Assembly (NCBI GenBank): GCA_947500385.1
Contig: CANMSA010000022.1
Location: 1 to 64,000 of the forward strand
Length of the DNA: 64,000 bases
Source: an uncultured Flavobacteriaceae bacterium
GTDB lineage: Bacteria; Bacteroidota; Bacteroidia; Flavobacteriales; Flavobacteriaceae
Direction: 5' to 3'
In this document: in pieces, positions 5,451-13,864 of the stretch
Numbering within the stretch: position 1 is the stretch's first letter
Layout of the letters: each line of letters starts with the position of its first letter
Notes under the pieces: model-generated
Told to the model about the DNA's origin: nothing
Database searches by the model: none
What the model saw: only the letters and a program-made list of their open reading frames with translations
Program-made: the position numbers and the translations under genes

Positions 5451-6644
5451 TTAAACGATCTTTAGAAGTTTCCCAACTTCGGTAAAGTCACGAATGGCCT
5501 TGTCTAAATGTTCACGTTCATGGGCCGCTGATAATTGTACGCGGATTCTTGCTTTTCCTTTGGGAACTACCGGATAAAAGAACCCGATGACATAAATTCC
5601 GCGATCTAAAAGCATGTTTGCCATTTCCTGTGAGAGCTTTGCGTCGTAGAGCATTACCGGTACAATGGCGGAGTCCCCGTCAATGATATCAAATCCGGCC
5701 GCTTTGATACCTTTTTTGAAGTAGGCCGTATTTTCTGCCAGTTTATCGCGTAAGCTGGTATCGTTCTTTAACATATCAAATACTTTGATAGAAGCGCCAA
5801 CAATAGCAGGGGCCAGGGAGTTCGAAAATAGGTAGGGCCGCGACCGTTGTCGCAGTATTTCGATAATTTCCTTTTTCCCGGTGGTATAACCGCCCATGGC
5901 GCCTCCCAAGGCCTTGCCGAGCGTACCGGTGATGATATCGATCCGGCCCATGGCTCCTTTTTCCTCTAACGTACCACGCCCGGTGGCACCTATGAAGCCC
6001 GTAGCATGGCATTCATCGATCATCACTAGGGCATCGTATTGGTCGGCAAGGTCACATATTTGGTCTAGGGGAGCCAAAAGGCCGTCCATAGAGAATACGC
6101 CATCGGTTACGATGATCTTAAAACGTGCTCCGTCAGCATTGGCCTGTATTAACTGTTCTTCCAAGGCGGTCATATCGCTGTTTGCATACCGATATCGTTT
6201 TGCCTTGCACAGGCGAACCCCATCAATAATGGAGGCATGGTTCAAAGAATCGGAAATAATGGCGTCCTCAGCACTCAATAGGGGTTCAAATACCCCACCG
6301 TTGGCATCAAAGGCGGCCGCATATAATATAGTATCCTCGGTGCCGTAAAAGTCGGCGATGGTTTGTTCCAAGGTTTTGTGAATGTCTTGGGTACCACAAA
6401 TAAAACGAACCGATGACATGCCGAAACCATGACTGTCGAGTGTATCTTTTGCCGCTTGTACCACTTCTGGATGGGAAGAAAGCCCTAAGTAATTGTTCGC
6501 GCAAAAGTTGATCACTTCTTCCCCGGTGGAAATACTGATGACCGCATCTTGCGGCGAGGTGATAATGCGTTCTTTTTTATAAAGACCATCGTCCTGTATT
6601 TGTTCCAATTCTTTTTGAAGGTGTTGTTGTATTTTTCCGTACAT
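5451..6644 (-). CDS. kbl: Glycine C-acetyltransferase (2-amino-3-ketobutyrate CoA ligase)
   Basis: A 397-residue PLP enzyme of the alpha-oxoamine synthase family. It cleaves 2-amino-3-oxobutyrate with CoA to glycine and acetyl-CoA in threonine breakdown. The PLP lysine is Lys244 in [17 protein letters not shown] (210-216) and NHAS (135-138) are the expected cofactor and catalytic motifs. The start at 6644 gives [10 protein letters not shown], as in Kbl proteins; a longer reading frame to 6740 overlaps the preceding gene. The start is 4 bases past the AddA-like stop, so the two are probably co-transcribed. No tdh (threonine dehydrogenase) is present in the window. Confidence 0.93.
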
Positions 6645-6648
6645 AATA

Positions 6649-9600
6649 TTAAGGTATAAATTCAGGTGTAATTCGTTCGTCAATATAGATAATGATCTTG
6701 TTTTCCACAACATAACCCATTTGTTCGAGTACCCGAGCATAGGTGGTTAATTGTTGATGGTATGATGCGTCCTTTTTTCCAGTTTTATAGTCTAGAATGG
6801 TGACACGCTTTTCTTTGATGACCAATCTGTCCGGGCGCAGCAATTGTCCGTTCTCCGTAATAATATCTTTTTCGTTCTTGATAGTATTTCCTTCTGAAAA
6901 ATAAGGTGCAAGTTGGGGGTGACCTACAATTTCTAACATCGTAGATCGAACGGCCTCGGCCTCCTCATTCTTTAAGTCGCCCTTGCGCACAAGCAACGAG
7001 AGTGCGTGCTCGATATCTTTGGGGGTTTCGATCAGGGCCATTGCAAGGTGGATCAAATTTCCCTTTGATAGGGCTGCGGCCCTTTCGGTATCCCAAAGGT
7101 TATCCGATTGGGTCAGGATTCTAAAACCGGGGCGCTCTTTCTGTGAATAGGAGAACGAGATGGTTGGCTGAACGGGCGGGGAAGGACGATCGGTTTCTTG
7201 TAAGTGCCCGAATTCGAATTGGGTCTTGGTTTCATCCCACTGCCCTATTCCTTGCAAATAATGAATGAACAAGCCCGAATAGTAATCGGTATTCGGATTC
7301 CCCTTTTTATCCAATTGTTTTCTTGTAATTATAAAGAGTGCCTTTTCGGCGCGGGTCAAAGCAACATAGAGCACGTTAAAAGCATCGAGCTCCATTTTTT
7401 CTTCTTCTTCTTGATAGCGTTGTTCGGCCTTGCCGCCGTATTGTACGACCTCTTTTTTTTCGTTAAAGAGCAAGGCCTCAAATCCTTCATACTTTTGAGG
7501 ATCTACCGGGAGCCATATCTTTTTATCCATTCGTTTGTAGAGATATTCGTTGGCATAGGGGAAAATAACCACCGGGAACTCAAGCCCCTTGGCTTTATGA
7601 ACGGTCATTATCTGAACGGCATTCAGATGATCGGGGGCGCTTAGGCCCAAGGAATCCTTTTTCTTTTCCCAATATGCCAAAAATAGGTGCAGTCCGGTAC
7701 CGTCTTTTTGTTCCACCTCTAAAACCACGTCCATCAAAAAGATTAGATAGGCCGCGGCCTCTTTTGCCAGGTCGAATTGTTTGATTGCCAGTTCTAAACC
7801 GTCGTACACCGATTTTTGCCTTACCGATCGCACATCAAAACCGTATTTCTCTTTAAGAAGCTTGTAGGGGTTTGCCAAATGGGACGCAATAAATGCATGC
7901 CGCGGTTCTTGCTCTTGAGATAAATAGGCGAGCACCTTGTAACGGGCGGCAAGATCATCCGGTTGATTCTGGTATTTTAGAAGGTCGATCAAAAAGCGCA
8001 CTTCCTCACTACTTTTCAATAAAAGGCTTTCCGAAGAAATGACCGGAATGTGACGCTCGGTAAGCTCTTGTGCCAATTGAACCCCATCTTTGTTATTACG
8101 TACTAGAATGCAAATGTCTGCATACGGATGTCCTTTGGCTAAAACGGTGTCGATCTTTTCAATGACGGCTCGGGCGTATAAGCTACCCTTTGAAGCAGGC
8201 TCACTGTCCTCGTCAATAAAGGTCATTTGCACGTAGCCTCCCGCGGTACTGTTCGACAACTGTTCATTACCATCGATAAAGAGTTGTTGATACAATTCGC
8301 TGTTCAAATAGGGCGCAGTGGCCTTGAAAAAAGAGTTGTTGAATGCTACAATTTCACGATGACTACGATAATTGGTAGGGAGGTTAAATACTTCTTGCGG
8401 AACCACAAAGGGGTAATCGCGTTCTAAGATAAGATCTAGAAATTGTTCGGCACGCCCCCCACGCCAGCGATAGATAGCTTGTTTGGCATCCCCGACCAAG
8501 AAAAGCGAACCGGTTTTCCCCTGCTCATCTTCACGCTCCAACCCATTCCCCAACAGGGGCTTTAGGTTTTCCCATTGCATAGCGGAAGTATCTTGAAACT
8601 CATCGATAAAATAATGCATGTATTTTTCTCCCAGCCGCTCGTATATAAAAGGGGCCGGTTGATCTTTGATCTGTTTGGATATAATCCCATTGAATTCTGA
8701 GATGGAAAGCTGATCGCGTTCCAACTGCAACTGTTTTATCTCTTGCTGCAGGCTGTTCAATACCGTTAGCGGAACAATATTGCCATAGGCATTTTTCAAG
8801 CGGGCCGTTTTGTAAAATGCTAGTTGTAGCGCTTCAAAGTGTTCGGTGAATCGCGGGTGCAGCGCATCAAGAATTGCTTTGGTTTCATCGGCACAACTTT
8901 TGTTGTACAACAGGGTCTCCGAGAAGTTTTTTTTCCATCCGGCATCGAAATCGACCTGAAGTGCACCGTTGGCTATCTTTTGTATGAAGTTGGGGAACGA
9001 GGCCCGGGTAAAATCTGTAAACTGTAGCCCGTTTTCCGCGATAAGCGTTAGACACTCCTTTGCATGGAACACCATTTTTTTTTCAAACTCGGTACGCTCT
9101 TGCGTTAGTTTTTTTTGGAGTGCTAAAAACTCCGGTATTTTTTTCTCTTGCAGTTTTTCAAGTTGAGAGGCATGGTTTTCGCTAAAAAGCAGTTTTCCAA
9201 TTTTGGCAAGGTCTATCGCAATATCCCAGCTTTTATCGTCATCGATTTTTTCAAAAGCAAACTCGACCAATACCCGGGTAAGTAATGGATCTTCCCCTGC
9301 TTTTAGAATTAGCCGTGACACTGCTTCGCCCAACAACAAATCATTGTCCAATACCACCTCAAAATTTTGTGGGAGCTTTAAATCTTTTGCAAAAGTGCGA
9401 ATAAGCCGATGGGTAAATTTATCGATAGTGGCGATATCGAAGAATGCATAGTTATGCAAAATCTCTTTAAGTGTATCGCCCGCTTTTGTTCGAAGTGTCT
9501 CCGCATCTAGCCGTAGGTCTTTCTGCACATCTGCGAACAACGGACTTGCACGACTCGCATCGTAGGTGCGCCCAAACTCGAAAAGGCTTTCCAAAATACG

Positions 9601-10034: not shown

Positions 10035-10643
10035 ATGGCTTTTGATTTACCAAAACTACCGTATGCGTACGATGCATTAGAACCAAACATCGATGCACGT
10101 ACGATGGAAATACATCATACAAAACACCACAACGGGTATACTACAAAACTGAATGGTGCAATTGAAGGGACCGACCTTGCTTCACATTCTATAGAAGATA
10201 TTTTAAAGAATCTGGATATGACGAACGCTGCGGTTCGTAATAACGGCGGCGGATTTTACAATCACTCGCTGTTTTGGGAAATTATGGCACCCAATGCAGG
10301 CGGACAACCTTCAGGAGATTTGGCAGCGGCAATCGATGCTGCTTTTGGATCTTTTGATGCATTCAAGACGAAATTCAGTGCTGCGGCAGGGACGCGATTT
10401 GGCTCTGGATGGGCTTGGTTGTGTGTTCACGAAGGAGGTGCCTTGGAGGTTTGTTCAACGCCGAATCAAGACAACCCCTTAATGCCAGGAACAGGATGTG
10501 GAGGCTTTCCTATCATAGGGTTGGATGTATGGGAACACGCCTATTACCTAAACTATCAGAACAGAAGACCTGATTACGTGAGTGCGTTTTTTAATGTAAT
10601 CAATTGGGATAAAGTATCAGCTTTGTACGAGGCGAACAAGTAA
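10035..10643 (+). CDS. sodA: Superoxide dismutase (Fe/Mn family)
   Basis: A 202-residue enzyme that converts superoxide to hydrogen peroxide and oxygen. The metal ligands are all present: His27 (HHTKHHNGY), His77 (YNHSLFW), Asp164 and His168 ([10 protein letters not shown]). The GGG-x-x-x-NHSLFW context and the [18 protein letters not shown] block are more like Mn than Fe enzymes, but metal choice cannot be fixed from this alone. There is no signal peptide, so it is cytoplasmic. It diverges from the AddA-like gene and is followed by a strong palindromic terminator. Its leader contains AACTTAA (10015-10021), complementary to the small RNAs encoded just downstream. Confidence 0.96.
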
Positions 10644-10655
10644 CATTTGTTTGAA

Positions 10656-10697
10656 ATAAAAAGGCCGTTCCTAGAATTCTAGGAACGGCCTTTTTTT
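10656..10697 (+). terminator. Intrinsic terminator of sodA (bidirectional)
   Basis: A long perfect palindrome centred between 10676 and 10677: A-run, GGCCGTTCCTAGA, then its complement and a T-run. Stem about 16-18 bp. It would end sodA from the left and small-RNA read-through from the right. Confidence 0.92.
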
Positions 10698-10721
10698 ATG
10701 CTTGACGATTGGAAATAAAAT

Positions 10722-10794
10722 AGAAAAGGGCGGAGAAGTCTCCACCCTTTTCGTCCCAAATCTTACCATAAACTTAACCTACTTATGCTATGGC
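10722..10794 (-). ncRNA. Multicopy small RNA, copy 1 (subtype A)
   Basis: First of five related minus-strand units. From the 5' end they share: CCATAGC, a conserved AT-rich block with AAGTAGGTTAAGTT, ATGG able to pair with the 5' CCAT, a spacer AAGATTTGGG, then an intrinsic terminator. Here the terminator stem is GGGTGGAG/CTCCGCCC with loop ACTT and a T-run. Upstream on the minus strand lies TAATTTAG (10799-10806), 7 of 8 matches to TAnnTTTG, and a T-run near -33. There is no open reading frame. I do not recognise the family. Ends are estimates. Confidence 0.72.
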
Positions 10795-10927
10795 AATACT
10801 AAATTACTGGTATTGTGGGAAATAAAAAAGGAATTTTAAGAAATTTTAAGTGTTTTTTATTGCCCCAATTATGGAAGTACAAACAAAAAAGTGGGGTTAA
10901 CCTTGTTAAATACAGGGGATTGAGCAA

Positions 10928-11000
10928 TAAAAAAGGCGGAGCAGAACTCCACCTTTTTTCCCCAAATCTTACCATGAACTTAACCTACTTATGCTATGGT
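10928..11000 (-). ncRNA. Multicopy small RNA, copy 2 (subtype B)
   Basis: Same core as the other copies. The terminator stem is GGTGGAG/CTCCGCC with loop TTCTG, then six T. The -7 element TATTTTTG (11005-11012) is a perfect TAnnTTTG match, placing the start a few bases into GGACCATAGC. Subtype B (copies 2, 3, 4) has GGACC before the core; subtype A (copies 1, 5) has TTGCC or CTTGCC. Confidence 0.75.
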
Positions 11001-11257
11001 CCTCCAAAAATAGACCGAAATAAGCCCCTGAAAAAAGGTTTTAGACGAATGTACGTTTATTAGGATGAAATGCCTTCGACGATATAGTCCCTTACAAGGA
11101 GTGAAGAATTGGCAAAAGATTTTTCAGCAGTTGGATAGCCGCGGATCGTTGATCTGAGATAAAAGAGTACTGAAGGTATAACGGTCTAAAGAAATAAAGG
11201 TGGTCAAGAAGATCTTGAGTGTTTTTTTGGGTGTTGAAATCGAAGGAGATACTGCAA

Positions 11258-11329
11258 ATAAAAAGGTGGAGCAGAACTCCACCTTTTTCCCCAAATCTTA
11301 CCATGAACTTAACCTACTTATGCTATGGT
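11258..11329 (-). ncRNA. Multicopy small RNA, copy 3 (subtype B)
   Basis: Core and terminator are as in copy 2, with one change in the stem (GGTGGAG/CTCCACC, turning a G-U pair into A-U or G-C type pairing). A perfect -7 element TACTTTTG lies at 11334-11341. The similarity to copy 4 extends another ~45 bases upstream of the promoter (to about 11375), including AGGCTACCCTCTACC on the minus strand. Confidence 0.75.
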
Positions 11330-11524
11330 CCTCCAAAAGTATGGTAGAGGGTAGCCTTAAAAAAACATCTTTGTTAAAAGCCCATTATATGCGTTGAAGT
11401 GCATCCGCTCAGAAATTCGGGGATCGGTTTTAAACCGGGGTGATTCACAAGGTTGTAATGCGTTCGCCATAGGTACATAAATGACGAATACAACTGCAGG
11501 TTCCGTTTTTAGTGTATGGGCCAT

Positions 11525-11596
11525 AAAAAAGGCGGAGCAGAACTCCACCTTTTTTCCCCAAATCTTACCATGAACTTAACCTACTTATGCTATGGT
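11525..11596 (-). ncRNA. Multicopy small RNA, copy 4 (subtype B)
   Basis: Core identical to copy 2 apart from the ends; terminator GGTGGAG/CTCCGCC then a T-run. Perfect -7 element TACTTTTG at 11601-11608. Upstream flank shared with copy 3 to about 11645, which marks copies 3 and 4 as a recent duplication that carried the promoter along. Confidence 0.75.
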
Positions 11597-11787
11597 CCTC
11601 CAAAAGTATGGTAGAGGGAAGCCTTAAAAAAACATCTTGGTTCAACTCCCTAATAATAGGTTGAAAGGTATGTAGTTAATTTGGGGCGAAGGGAAATCTA
11701 CGGGAGGGGGTCATGGGTGTGGATCGGCAATAGAATCCAATCGGTTGAATCTAGAGGAGAAATTGCTCAAACCGTGAAGGTGCTAAA

Positions 11788-11860
11788 TAAAAAAGGCGGA
11801 GAAGTCTCCACCTTTTTTGCCCCAAATCTTACCATGAACTTAACCTACTTATGCTATGGC
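11788..11860 (-). ncRNA. Multicopy small RNA, copy 5 (subtype A)
   Basis: Core as in the others. The terminator has loop ACTT like copy 1 (GGTGGAG/CTCCGCC stem, T-run). The -7 element TATTTTAG (11865-11872) has 7 of 8 matches. It is the first unit after the purF stop codon (11966) and points the same way as purF, so purF read-through could also produce it. Confidence 0.72.
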
Positions 11861-11965
11861 AAGTCTAAAATAGGTGGGTAGCTTGCCTTTACGATGAAAA
11901 ACACGATGAAAGCCATCAATTAATCGACGAAATGCAATATGAGAGGTATTTCATCGATAAAGGTG

Positions 11966-13864
11966 CTAATATGCCCGTTCGTTTTTTCCTTCATAAAAGT
12001 TTATAAAAGCCCTGTTTACGACCCGATTCCCGCCGGGTGTCGGGTAGTTTCCCGTAAAGTACCAATCGCCCAGGTTTTTAGGGCAAGCTTTGTGCAAATT
12101 CTCAATGGTCTGGTATATAATATGCACTTCGGCCTTGATGTCTGAAGGGCTTAGAAGTTCCCCTGTTTTTTGAGATATTTCATCGGCCGTAAAGGGGATA
12201 TAAAACTCTTTGACGTAGTTTATGACTTCGCGATCTGCGGTATTTACCTGTGCTTTGCATTTTTTGTAAATTTCGTCTATCAGGTGCATGGTGCCTCGTT
12301 CTTTATGGAGTGCCAAAGCAGCGCGAAAAGCGATGAAATCTTCGAGCTTGGCCATATCAATTCCATAACAATCGGGATAACGAATCTGAGGGGCTGAGGA
12401 CACCACGATTATTTTTTTGGGAGATAAGCGATCTAGTATTTTTAAAATACTATTTTTTAGCGTAGTACCGCGTACAATACTGTCATCGATGATTACAAGG
12501 TTATCCCCTTTTTCAACAGACCCATATGAAATGTCGTAAACGTGGGCGACCAAATCATTTCTGCTACTATCCTGCGTAATGAATGTACGTAATTTTGCAT
12601 CTTTGATGGCCACCTTCTCTATGCGCGGCCGCACCTCCAAAATTGAGTGCAGTTGTTCGCTGGTGATTGTTGGTCCCAGCTCCAAAATTTGCGCTTCCTT
12701 TTTCTTATTAAGATAGTTTTGCGCTTCTTTTACCATTCCGAAAAAGGAAGTTTCCGCAGTGTTCGGGATATAGGAGAAAACCGTTTTCTTAATATTTTCT
12801 TCTATAGAGGAAAGAATTTTAGGAAAAATGAGTTTCCCCAGTTCTTTTCGTTCCTGATAGATTTCCTGATCGCTTCCTCTCGAAAAATAGATACGCTCAA
12901 ACGAACATGCTTTGCGTTCCGTGGGGGCGAGTACCTGCTTTAAAAAAGTATTCCCGCTTTTTTTGATAATGATGGCATTGCCTGGATCTAGCTCTTTTAC
13001 CGCATCATATGGGACATTAAAAACGGTTTGTATGGCAGGTCTTTCAGAAGCAACTACCACCACTTCATCGTCTTTGTAATAGTATGCAGGTCGAATTCCT
13101 GCAGGGTCCCGTAAAACAAAGGCATCCCCATGTCCCAATAAACCGGCCATTGTGTAACCACCGTCAAAGTTCTTGGCGGCACGTCGCAAGATCTTGTGTA
13201 CTTTTAATCGTTCCGCAATAAGGGGGGAGGCTTCTAACTTATTGTATCCTTCCTTCTTGATTTCTTTATACAACTTGGCAACTTCATCATCTAGGAAGTG
13301 ACCAATTTTTTCCATAACGGTTACCGTATCGGCCATCTCCTTCGGATGCTGCCCCAGCTGTACCAGATTATCGAAAAGTTCATGCACGTTGGTCATATTG
13401 AAATTTCCTGCGACAATCAAATTTCGGTGCATCCAGTTATTTTGACGGAGGAAAGGGTGTACGCTTTCGATACTGTTTTTCCCAAAAGTTCCATAACGAA
13501 CATGCCCTAAAAGCAACTCGCCAATATAGGGAATGTGTTTTTTCTGAAGGGCTACATCGTCTGCATATTCCTGATGTTCCTTTAAAGAAGTATTTATACG
13601 GTCATTGATTTGGGCAAAGATGTCCTGTATGGGTTGCTGTGCCACCGAACGCACGCGGCTCATATACCGTTCCCCGGCCTTCATGTCTATCTTAATGCTG
13701 GCAAAGCCTGCACCGTCTTGCCCACGATTGTGCTGCTTTTCCATCATGAGGTACATTTTGTTTACCCCATAAAATGCAGTGCCATACTTTTCCTTGTAAT
13801 ACTCTAAAGGCTTTAGTAATCGAATTATTGATATACCACACTCGTGCTTAATCGCGTCACTCAT
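11966..13864 (-). CDS. purF: Amidophosphoribosyltransferase (PurF family, long form)
   Basis: A 632-residue enzyme for the first step of purine synthesis: PRPP plus glutamine gives phosphoribosylamine. The Ntn glutaminase domain starts with Cys9 (HECGI), so an 8-residue propeptide must be removed; NRGQDGAG (46-53), HVRYGTFGKNS (121-131) and NFNMTN (154-159) follow. The PRPP loop VIIDDSIVRGTT is at 457-468. Both halves look intact. It is about 120-160 residues longer than the usual PurF (~470-510), mostly through insertions in the glutaminase half and a C-terminal tail. I believe this long form is typical of Flavobacteria, but that is from memory. The small-RNA array lies downstream. Confidence 0.88.
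   Translation of the reverse strand: MSDAIKHECGISIIRLLKPLEYYKEKYGTAFYGVNKMYLMMEKQHNRGQDGAGFASIKIDMKAGERYMSRVRSVAQQPIQDIFAQINDRINTSLKEHQEYADDVALQKKHIPYIGELLLGHVRYGTFGKNSIESVHPFLRQNNWMHRNLIVAGNFNMTNVHELFDNLVQLGQHPKEMADTVTVMEKIGHFLDDEVAKLYKEIKKEGYNKLEASPLIAERLKVHKILRRAAKNFDGGYTMAGLLGHGDAFVLRDPAGIRPAYYYKDDEVVVVASERPAIQTVFNVPYDAVKELDPGNAIIIKKSGNTFLKQVLAPTERKACSFERIYFSRGSDQEIYQERKELGKLIFPKILSSIEENIKKTVFSYIPNTAETSFFGMVKEAQNYLNKKKEAQILELGPTITSEQLHSILEVRPRIEKVAIKDAKLRTFITQDSSRNDLVAHVYDISYGSVEKGDNLVIIDDSIVRGTTLKNSILKILDRLSPKKIIVVSSAPQIRYPDCYGIDMAKLEDFIAFRAALALHKERGTMHLIDEIYKKCKAQVNTADREVINYVKEFYIPFTADEISQKTGELLSPSDIKAEVHIIYQTIENLHKACPKNLGDWYFTGNYPTPGGNRVVNRAFINFYEGKNERAY

Follow-up and report, generated by a model that had tools for sequence, protein, structure and literature searches.

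A tandem array of putative small RNA genes between purF and sodA in Flavobacteriaceae

In this work, an array of five short units between purF and sodA was analysed in an uncultured Flavobacteriaceae bacterium and its relatives, and the comparison of genomes showed a gene family with conserved promoters, terminators and synteny, together with a conserved complementary sequence. As judged from sequence, the units are a real gene family that is new to the Rfam copy searched. We consider it rather probable that they encode small RNAs (sRNAs) which base-pair with the translation-initiation regions of secreted proteins and lipoproteins, with a separate RNA as their sponge.

The array and its units

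The window, which is the whole stretch of 64,000 nucleotides that was analysed, carries the following features at the array.

10035 to 10643, plus strand: sodA (superoxide dismutase), conserved convergent neighbour, below the NCBIfam cut-offs
10658 to 10695, plus strand: strong hairpin terminator in the interval between sodA and the array
10717 to 10795, minus strand: putative sRNA unit, copy 1, final in the array and of type C (UUUAUGG, GGGACG linker), 5' end placed via the promoter position
10723 to 10752, minus strand: terminator stem of copy 1, from the terminator scan
10799 to 10806, minus strand: predicted -7 promoter element of copy 1, TAATTTAG, 7/8, from column frequencies in 361 distinct units
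10923 to 11001, minus strand: putative sRNA unit, copy 2, type B
11005 to 11012, minus strand: predicted -7 promoter element of copy 2, TATTTTTG
11253 to 11330, minus strand: putative sRNA unit, copy 3, type B
11334 to 11341, minus strand: predicted -7 promoter element of copy 3, TACTTTTG
11519 to 11597, minus strand: putative sRNA unit, copy 4, type B
11601 to 11608, minus strand: predicted -7 promoter element of copy 4, TACTTTTG
11782 to 11862, minus strand: putative sRNA unit, copy 5, first in the array (purF-proximal) and of type A (GGGGC linker)
11865 to 11872, minus strand: predicted -7 promoter element of copy 5, TATTTTAG, 7/8
11966 to 13864, minus strand: purF (amidophosphoribosyltransferase, 632 aa), conserved upstream neighbour, below the NCBIfam cut-off

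The preliminary description had placed five minus-strand units here, each with a conserved core, a TAnnTTTG-like -7 element and a G/C-rich terminator, and had called the spacers unconserved beyond copies 3 and 4; all of this was borne out. The units span 10717-11862 with start-to-start distances of 206, 329, 267 and 264 bp, and each of the five copies is 78-81 nt long. A 22-nt core is identical in 5/5 units, and with up to three mismatches it has no occurrence outside the array in the 6.03-Mb genome of the window. The full near-invariant core of about 40 nt reads CCATAGCATAAGTAGGTTAAGTTyATGGTAAGATTTGGG. Read by eye and aligned, the -7 element is perfect in copies 2-4 and matches 7/8 letters in copies 1 and 5, and a T-rich stretch lies at about -35 upstream of every unit's core. 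Every unit ends with a G+C stem between A and T runs, and the spacers differ except for those of copies 3 and 4 (90% over 115 nt). The unit folds were better than those of dinucleotide shuffles (z -2.76 to -4.24), and folding predicted a 5' hairpin in 5/5 units. A generic scan for sigma-70 promoters and terminators adds nothing: it called 0 promoters and two terminators, where shuffles gave 1.5, and one of the two terminators belongs to a unit of the array. A small ORF in the ATG GTA AGA frame was rejected, because a one-base deletion in the linker changes this frame in many relatives. The PurF neighbour (11966-13864, 632 aa) scored 130.7 bits against an NCBIfam purF cut-off of 350 and is thus a long divergent form.

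Conservation, locus order and subtypes

The covariance-model search of flavobacterial genomes that the preliminary description had proposed was run with model R1 against 395 Bacteroidota genomes, and strong matches were obtained in Flavobacteriaceae only. Among the 41 Flavobacteriaceae listed, 33 matched at E <1e-10, two weakly and six not at all, and 326 further genomes outside these 41 gave no match; the weak match in G521, inspected by eye, resembles a divergent unit together with its promoter. Weak R1 matches also appeared in 14 genomes outside the family (E 7e-4 to 0.01). Occurrence there was rejected after 12 of the 14 (all except G214 and G346) had been read by eye and found to hold only terminator-like stems. 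The 22-mer core with up to three mismatches was present in 158/199 Flavobacteriaceae genomes, representing 157/198 genera, against 13/199 for the reversed pattern, and its occurrence is therefore not due to chance. An exact core scan across named genomes gave at least 117 stretches; their titles mostly name genera that we take to be Flavobacteriaceae, some give only the family or a higher group, and one is Algicola.

The flanks were compared in 365 units with full flanks, 361 of them distinct, after units too close to a locus end had been left out. The invariance within the 22-mer is partly by construction, since the units were found by it. The columns on its 3' side, ATGGTA and GGG, are conserved at 98-100% in the 361 distinct units. 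Upstream, the same units have T(-14) at 87%, A(-13) at 91%, T(-10) at 99%, T(-9) at 90% and G(-7) at 79%, and T at -38 to -35 at 61-70%. TAnnTTTG is the type of the primary promoter of Bacteroidota. Its exact form within -20..-2 is limited to 137/354 typed units (A 44/162, B 92/116, C 1/76) because position -8 is free, and type C units have the conserved TAATTTAG in its place. The relaxed form TAnnTTT[GA] was found in 172/354 typed units, compared with 2 to 10/361 in four control windows further upstream.

The median folding energy of the terminator regions was -19.1 kcal/mol, compared with -6.3 when they were shuffled by mononucleotide, and in 37 aligned RNAs both sides were changed in 10/13 pairs of the terminator helix, i.e. 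the changes are compensatory. In the same alignment, the 5' helix (11 pairs) was paired in 99% of cells with 0 double changes, so covariation gives no proof of this helix. Divergent copies in genus g127 (probably Flavobacterium) keep AGTAGGTTAAGT and ATGGTA.ATTTGGGG, and the 5' strand of their hairpin is changed without full compensation, with pairs broken; the 3' strand of the hairpin and the linker thus seem to be constrained as sequence. Several copies, each with its own promoter and terminator, are what a multicopy base-pairing sRNA would have, and they were found here by sequence. Taken together, the promoter columns, the compensatory terminator pairs, the invariant core between variable flanks and the synteny support the earlier reading of the array as a putative multicopy sRNA family with its own promoters and terminators.

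At least one of eight window neighbours was kept in 140/145 loci and none in 5/145, where the loci are not all independent because at least one genome stands under two identifiers (L039, G001). These neighbours are purF, pfkB, RNase H, purN, fabF, sodA, a uvrD-like gene and the gene at 5451-6740, and the order of the window is kept; FabF has the opposite orientation in one of the 140 syntenic loci. Three subtypes were distinguished: A with a GGGGC linker, B with GGGG and then A or G, and C with UUUAUGG and GGGAyG. Arrays with several types follow the order A-B(n)-C (ABC 29, ABBC 20, ABBBC 6, ABBBBC 2), and the other loci are A 33, AA 21, AAA 6, AAAA 1, BC 6, BBC 2, BBBC 1, B 2, C 5 and AB 4. 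Seven loci hold an unclassified unit. The A-B(n)-C order is broken in none of all the loci. The array of the window is ABBBC, with copy 5 as A and copy 1 as C. The upstream conservation of type C extends past the promoter: in the window (10799-10830) and in relatives, a conserved block TTTATTTCCCACAATACCAGTAATTTAGT lies beyond the -7 element, which is possibly the site of a regulator.

Some loci depart from this arrangement. Single strongly scoring units lie away from purF and sodA in G155 and G024 (L432:1573-1651, L433:1497-1577), besides the other copies of these genomes. In G014, one unit stands beside a purF-like gene and one beside a sodA-like gene about 219 kb away (L430:1576-1654, L431:1515-1594), and this array looks as if it had been split by rearrangement. 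In genus g127, locus L288 (G391:C4:178900-180400) has five units at intervals of 240-243 bp, of which four score equally, and this looks like a recent tandem amplification in one g127 species.

Predicted pairing with start regions and the complementary sequence

We hypothesize that the array produces five sibling trans-acting sRNAs about 75-80 nt long, and that every sibling has a primary-sigma promoter of the TAnnTTTG type and an intrinsic terminator to itself. A hairpin with the loop GUAGG would form from the conserved 5' domain, with the single-stranded linker AAGAUUUGGGG after it. Loop and linker would serve as two seeds for pairing in the cell with mRNAs, chiefly those of secreted proteins and lipoproteins, at their translation-initiation regions, and this pairing would block translation. 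A separate RNA gene at another place in the chromosome, nearly the full complement of the core, would titrate the siblings as a sponge. The dose may depend on the number of copies, and promoters specific to the types A, B and C may let this dose respond to different conditions. The near-invariance of about 40 nt exceeds the need of two seeds, and this counts against the base-pairing reading, as do the 5' helix free of compensatory pairs, the limited share of units with the exact TAnnTTTG, and the failure to find RRM or Hfq proteins in the genomes tested.

The pairing tests used sampled genome stretches. The published targeting of SusC by FopS was recovered with the same duplex method and thus serves as a method control for the array core: when the 5' region of FopS was paired with the SusC start regions of 19 Bacteroides genes, the mean duplex z was -4.53, with 0/100 shuffles as low. 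In the window's genome, the array core gave z -3.15 against 350 start regions (0/60 shuffles as low), compared with z -0.70 against coding windows (16/60 as low). When 129-152 genes were sampled per genome in five genomes, start regions gave z -2.66 to -4.02, with 0 or 1/48 shuffles as low, compared with -0.08 to -1.26 for coding windows. Shuffles that kept the three CAT triplets gave the same picture of start regions against coding windows, and the pairing coverage rose above that of shuffles most at the start codon. The signal was also given by G290, in which R1 found nothing, and by G426, which is absent from the 49 genomes that R1 matched; in part at least, it therefore reflects how the core fits the start regions of Bacteroidota in general. 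With just the 30-nt 3' part of the core, z was no lower than -1.31.

Narrower comparisons gave a mixed picture. For SusC/TonB start regions (18 usable of 30 loci), the mean z was -2.49 with 1/100 shuffles as low, the extremes being not unusual; neither reading these regions by eye nor comparing the k-mers of 626 start regions with those of coding windows gave a lead. With a simple home-made signal-peptide rule for the secreted-protein class, the start regions of this class fitted better in G395 (p 0.016) and G032 (p 0.005), both uncorrected, and the bias was not significant in the window's genome (p 0.14) or in G290 (p 0.10). Against direct pairing, the counts of complementary sites were below those of the reversed-pattern controls (10 non-array against 33, 66 against 119, and 7 against 20). 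Long perfect complementary runs in start regions showed no significant excess over shuffled cores, with 16 against 9.4 for 9-mers (46/500 shuffles as high) and 3 against 2.5 for 10-mers.

Single target sites, picked from these searches, are candidates only. Among 374 start regions of the window's genome, a set that includes shorter genes than the 350, the best is CCCCGAATCTTAAATTAACCTACGTTATG, which lies before a 123-aa protein that is lipoprotein-like by eye and has no Pfam or NCBIfam match; the sequence of this start region is CCCCGAATCTTAAATTAACCTAC. The predicted two-seed site CCCCGAATCTTAAATTAACCTACGTTATG would pair with the linker over 12 bp, one of them G-U, and with the loop side over 9 bp, at -33.1 kcal/mol and z -6.7, compared with -5.4 for the 5th percentile of the best sites of shuffled cores. 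The best sites of G395 and G290 are not beyond the corresponding percentile of their own shuffles, and that of G032 is slightly beyond its own. The pattern AATCTT..TTAACCTAC occurred in 12 of 119 relatives against 26 for the reversed pattern, and within the window's genus in 6/10 genomes against 2/10, five of the six being the lipoprotein start. The lipoprotein site is thus present in 5/10 genomes of the genus, and its block is identical in 23/27 columns, compared with 31/60 just upstream and 48/60 at the coding start. TTAACCTAC followed by ATG occurs at six non-array places in the genome, two of which are gene starts with CCC(C).AATC as a second match upstream; the second of these genes encodes a secreted-type protein with a PKD domain. 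A sulfatase of the same genome, lipoprotein-like by eye, starts with ATGAACCTACTTATG. In G148, TTAACCTACTTATGTTATG, a 19-nt perfect complement of the G148 core, lies at the start codon of a type IX sorting domain protein. Start-region-like sites were also seen at a 486-aa secreted-type protein (L428, G175), and a 29-codon ORF (L434, G105) has both seed complements near an ATG.

On contig 9 of the window's genome, at about 1482-1550 (L191, region 1400-1560), the sequence TCCCAAATCTTACCAAACTAAACCTACTTACGCTAG is a near-full complement of the array core. It has a T-run before it and a terminator-like stem after it, the latter seen in the fold and unflagged by the terminator rule of the promoter/terminator scan, and by eye the opposite strand has no terminator. 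Its predicted duplexes with the five units reach -45 to -50 kcal/mol. Homologues with conserved upstream blocks and their own stems were found in G582 of the same genus and in G050 of another genus, so that the complementary sequence is present in three genomes of two genera (L191; L435, minus strand; L436, plus strand). By names assigned by eye, its neighbour is a fasciclin-type gene both in the window's genome and in G582, and viral contigs gave no match to the complementary sequence. The complementary sequence is likely to be a sponge RNA gene; an inverted, decayed copy of a unit is less likely, because the upstream elements and the stem are kept in the three genomes. Sponges of sRNAs are separate RNAs complementary to an sRNA, and the one proposed here would differ from these in having its own locus and in being almost fully complementary to the whole sibling family.

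Alternative readings, related systems and significance

CsrB/RsmZ-type RNAs act as protein decoys, and by analogy the array RNAs might sequester an RNA-binding protein, with the core as the protein site and the copies giving the stoichiometry. The near-invariance of the whole core and not just of the seeds, the several copies and the predicted hairpin with 99% of cells paired would suit such a role. Against it stand the two-seed match to mRNAs and the complementary sequence, and the proteins searched for were absent: RRM_1 (PF00076) was found in 0/25 Flavobacteriaceae genomes, as against 4/15 other genomes of the order, and Hfq (PF17209) in 0/40 genomes. We regard the decoy as unlikely.

It is considerably more doubtful that the units are the processed 3' region of the purF transcript, that is, terminators and 3'-UTR-derived RNAs tied to purine synthesis and without separate promoters. 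The first unit does begin about 105 nt past the purF stop on the same strand, the synteny is conserved, and the exact TAnnTTTG occurs in a minority of units. But promoter columns are conserved upstream of the units, the terminator stem after each unit would stop read-through, and G155 and G024 (L432, L433) have strongly scoring single units at places away from purF.

Equally improbable is a flavobacterial branch of the Bacteroides FopS RNAs, with an RRM protein as regulator and susC mRNAs as targets. According to the available extracts of PMC11697453, FopS is a paralogous sRNA family of Bacteroides (Rfam RF04319) that targets susC start regions and has the RRM protein RbpB as partner. As far as these extracts describe FopS, the two families are alike in multicopy siblings, primary-sigma promoter, intrinsic terminator, 5' pairing region and complementarity to the translation-initiation regions of envelope proteins; judged by folds and column frequencies, the array has promoter and terminator of the FopS type. 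Flavobacterial start regions are complementary to FopS as well, and both families contain the 15-letter string UUCAUGGUA(UU)AGAUUU. The local alignment score of array and FopS was, however, reached by 97/5000 shuffled cores and 132/5000 shuffled FopS sequences. The FopS model scored at best 18.2 bits (E 0.53), over a 96-nt stretch, against a gathering score of 56, a genome search with RF04319 at E 0.1 gave no match at the array, and R1 gave no score to FopS copies (six loci). On the same partial view of FopS, the array is tandem whereas FopS is dispersed, its 5' end is predicted to be a hairpin with two seeds instead of single-stranded, and RRM proteins were found in none of 25 genomes tested in its family. 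As side observations, the 5' region of FopS looks like the reverse complement of a start region, and weak FopS matches at L155, L157, L176 and L177 are by eye the antisense of gene starts (TTTTTCAT...).

Finally, non-transcribed terminator-like or mobile repeats are scarcely credible: the terminator stems are repeated, but the core and the promoter columns are conserved, and a mobile repeat is unlikely because the units lie mostly at one fixed locus and neither plasmid and phage collections (array units) nor viral contigs (exact 21-letter core pattern) gave a match.

Other known families were compared with the array. In the window, the only Rfam match above the cut-off was a tRNA, and the array region gave 45 matches at E up to 10, all below it. 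The link to Flavo-1 suggested in the preliminary description did not hold up, as Flavo-1 is absent among these matches, and it was rejected. The Flavo-1 motif is reported from Flavobacteriaceae in the extracts of PMC9723704, and it shares with the array this occurrence but no Rfam match. STnc40 was rejected at 31.3 of 45 bits, reached via the terminator and a short 5' part. Qrr, OmrA/B and LhrC are sibling sRNAs with several near-identical copies that have their own promoters and terminators. The array is like them in these respects, without a sequence relation in the Rfam scans; it differs in forming one tandem array with ordered subtypes, and Hfq is found in 0/40 genomes. All three are also named in the extracts of PMC11697453. 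Extracts of two further papers report sRNA candidates from two Flavobacterium species, for one of which the candidates had no Rfam match (PMC9723704, PMC5395568), including Rfp RNAs detected experimentally in Flavobacterium psychrophilum, among which a third stem-loop is mentioned for Rfp18 (PMC9723704), and candidates of F. columnare (PMC5395568). Single members of the array may be among these candidates, with no function assigned. In open-licence PMC full text, no paper was recognised as describing the purF-sodA array.

For base-pairing sRNAs as the preferred reading, the wider meaning is proposed tentatively. The array may act throughout the family as a post-transcriptional switch for the surface and secreted proteome of flavobacteria, in which vertically kept tandem two-seed sRNAs with position-specific subtypes would work without Hfq or RRM proteins and be opposed by a dedicated RNA gene of near-perfect complementarity. 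Post-transcriptional control is little known in Flavobacteriaceae, a major marine and soil family, and the putative sRNA family described here, unmatched in the Rfam copy searched, was found in 157 of the 198 genera searched, mostly at one fixed locus. If true, this would offer a system for studying multicopy sRNAs and a complementary RNA without Hfq. Moreover, if secreted proteins and lipoproteins are controlled by these RNAs, there would be a single handle on the tuning of polymer degradation, surface proteins and type IX secretion cargo.
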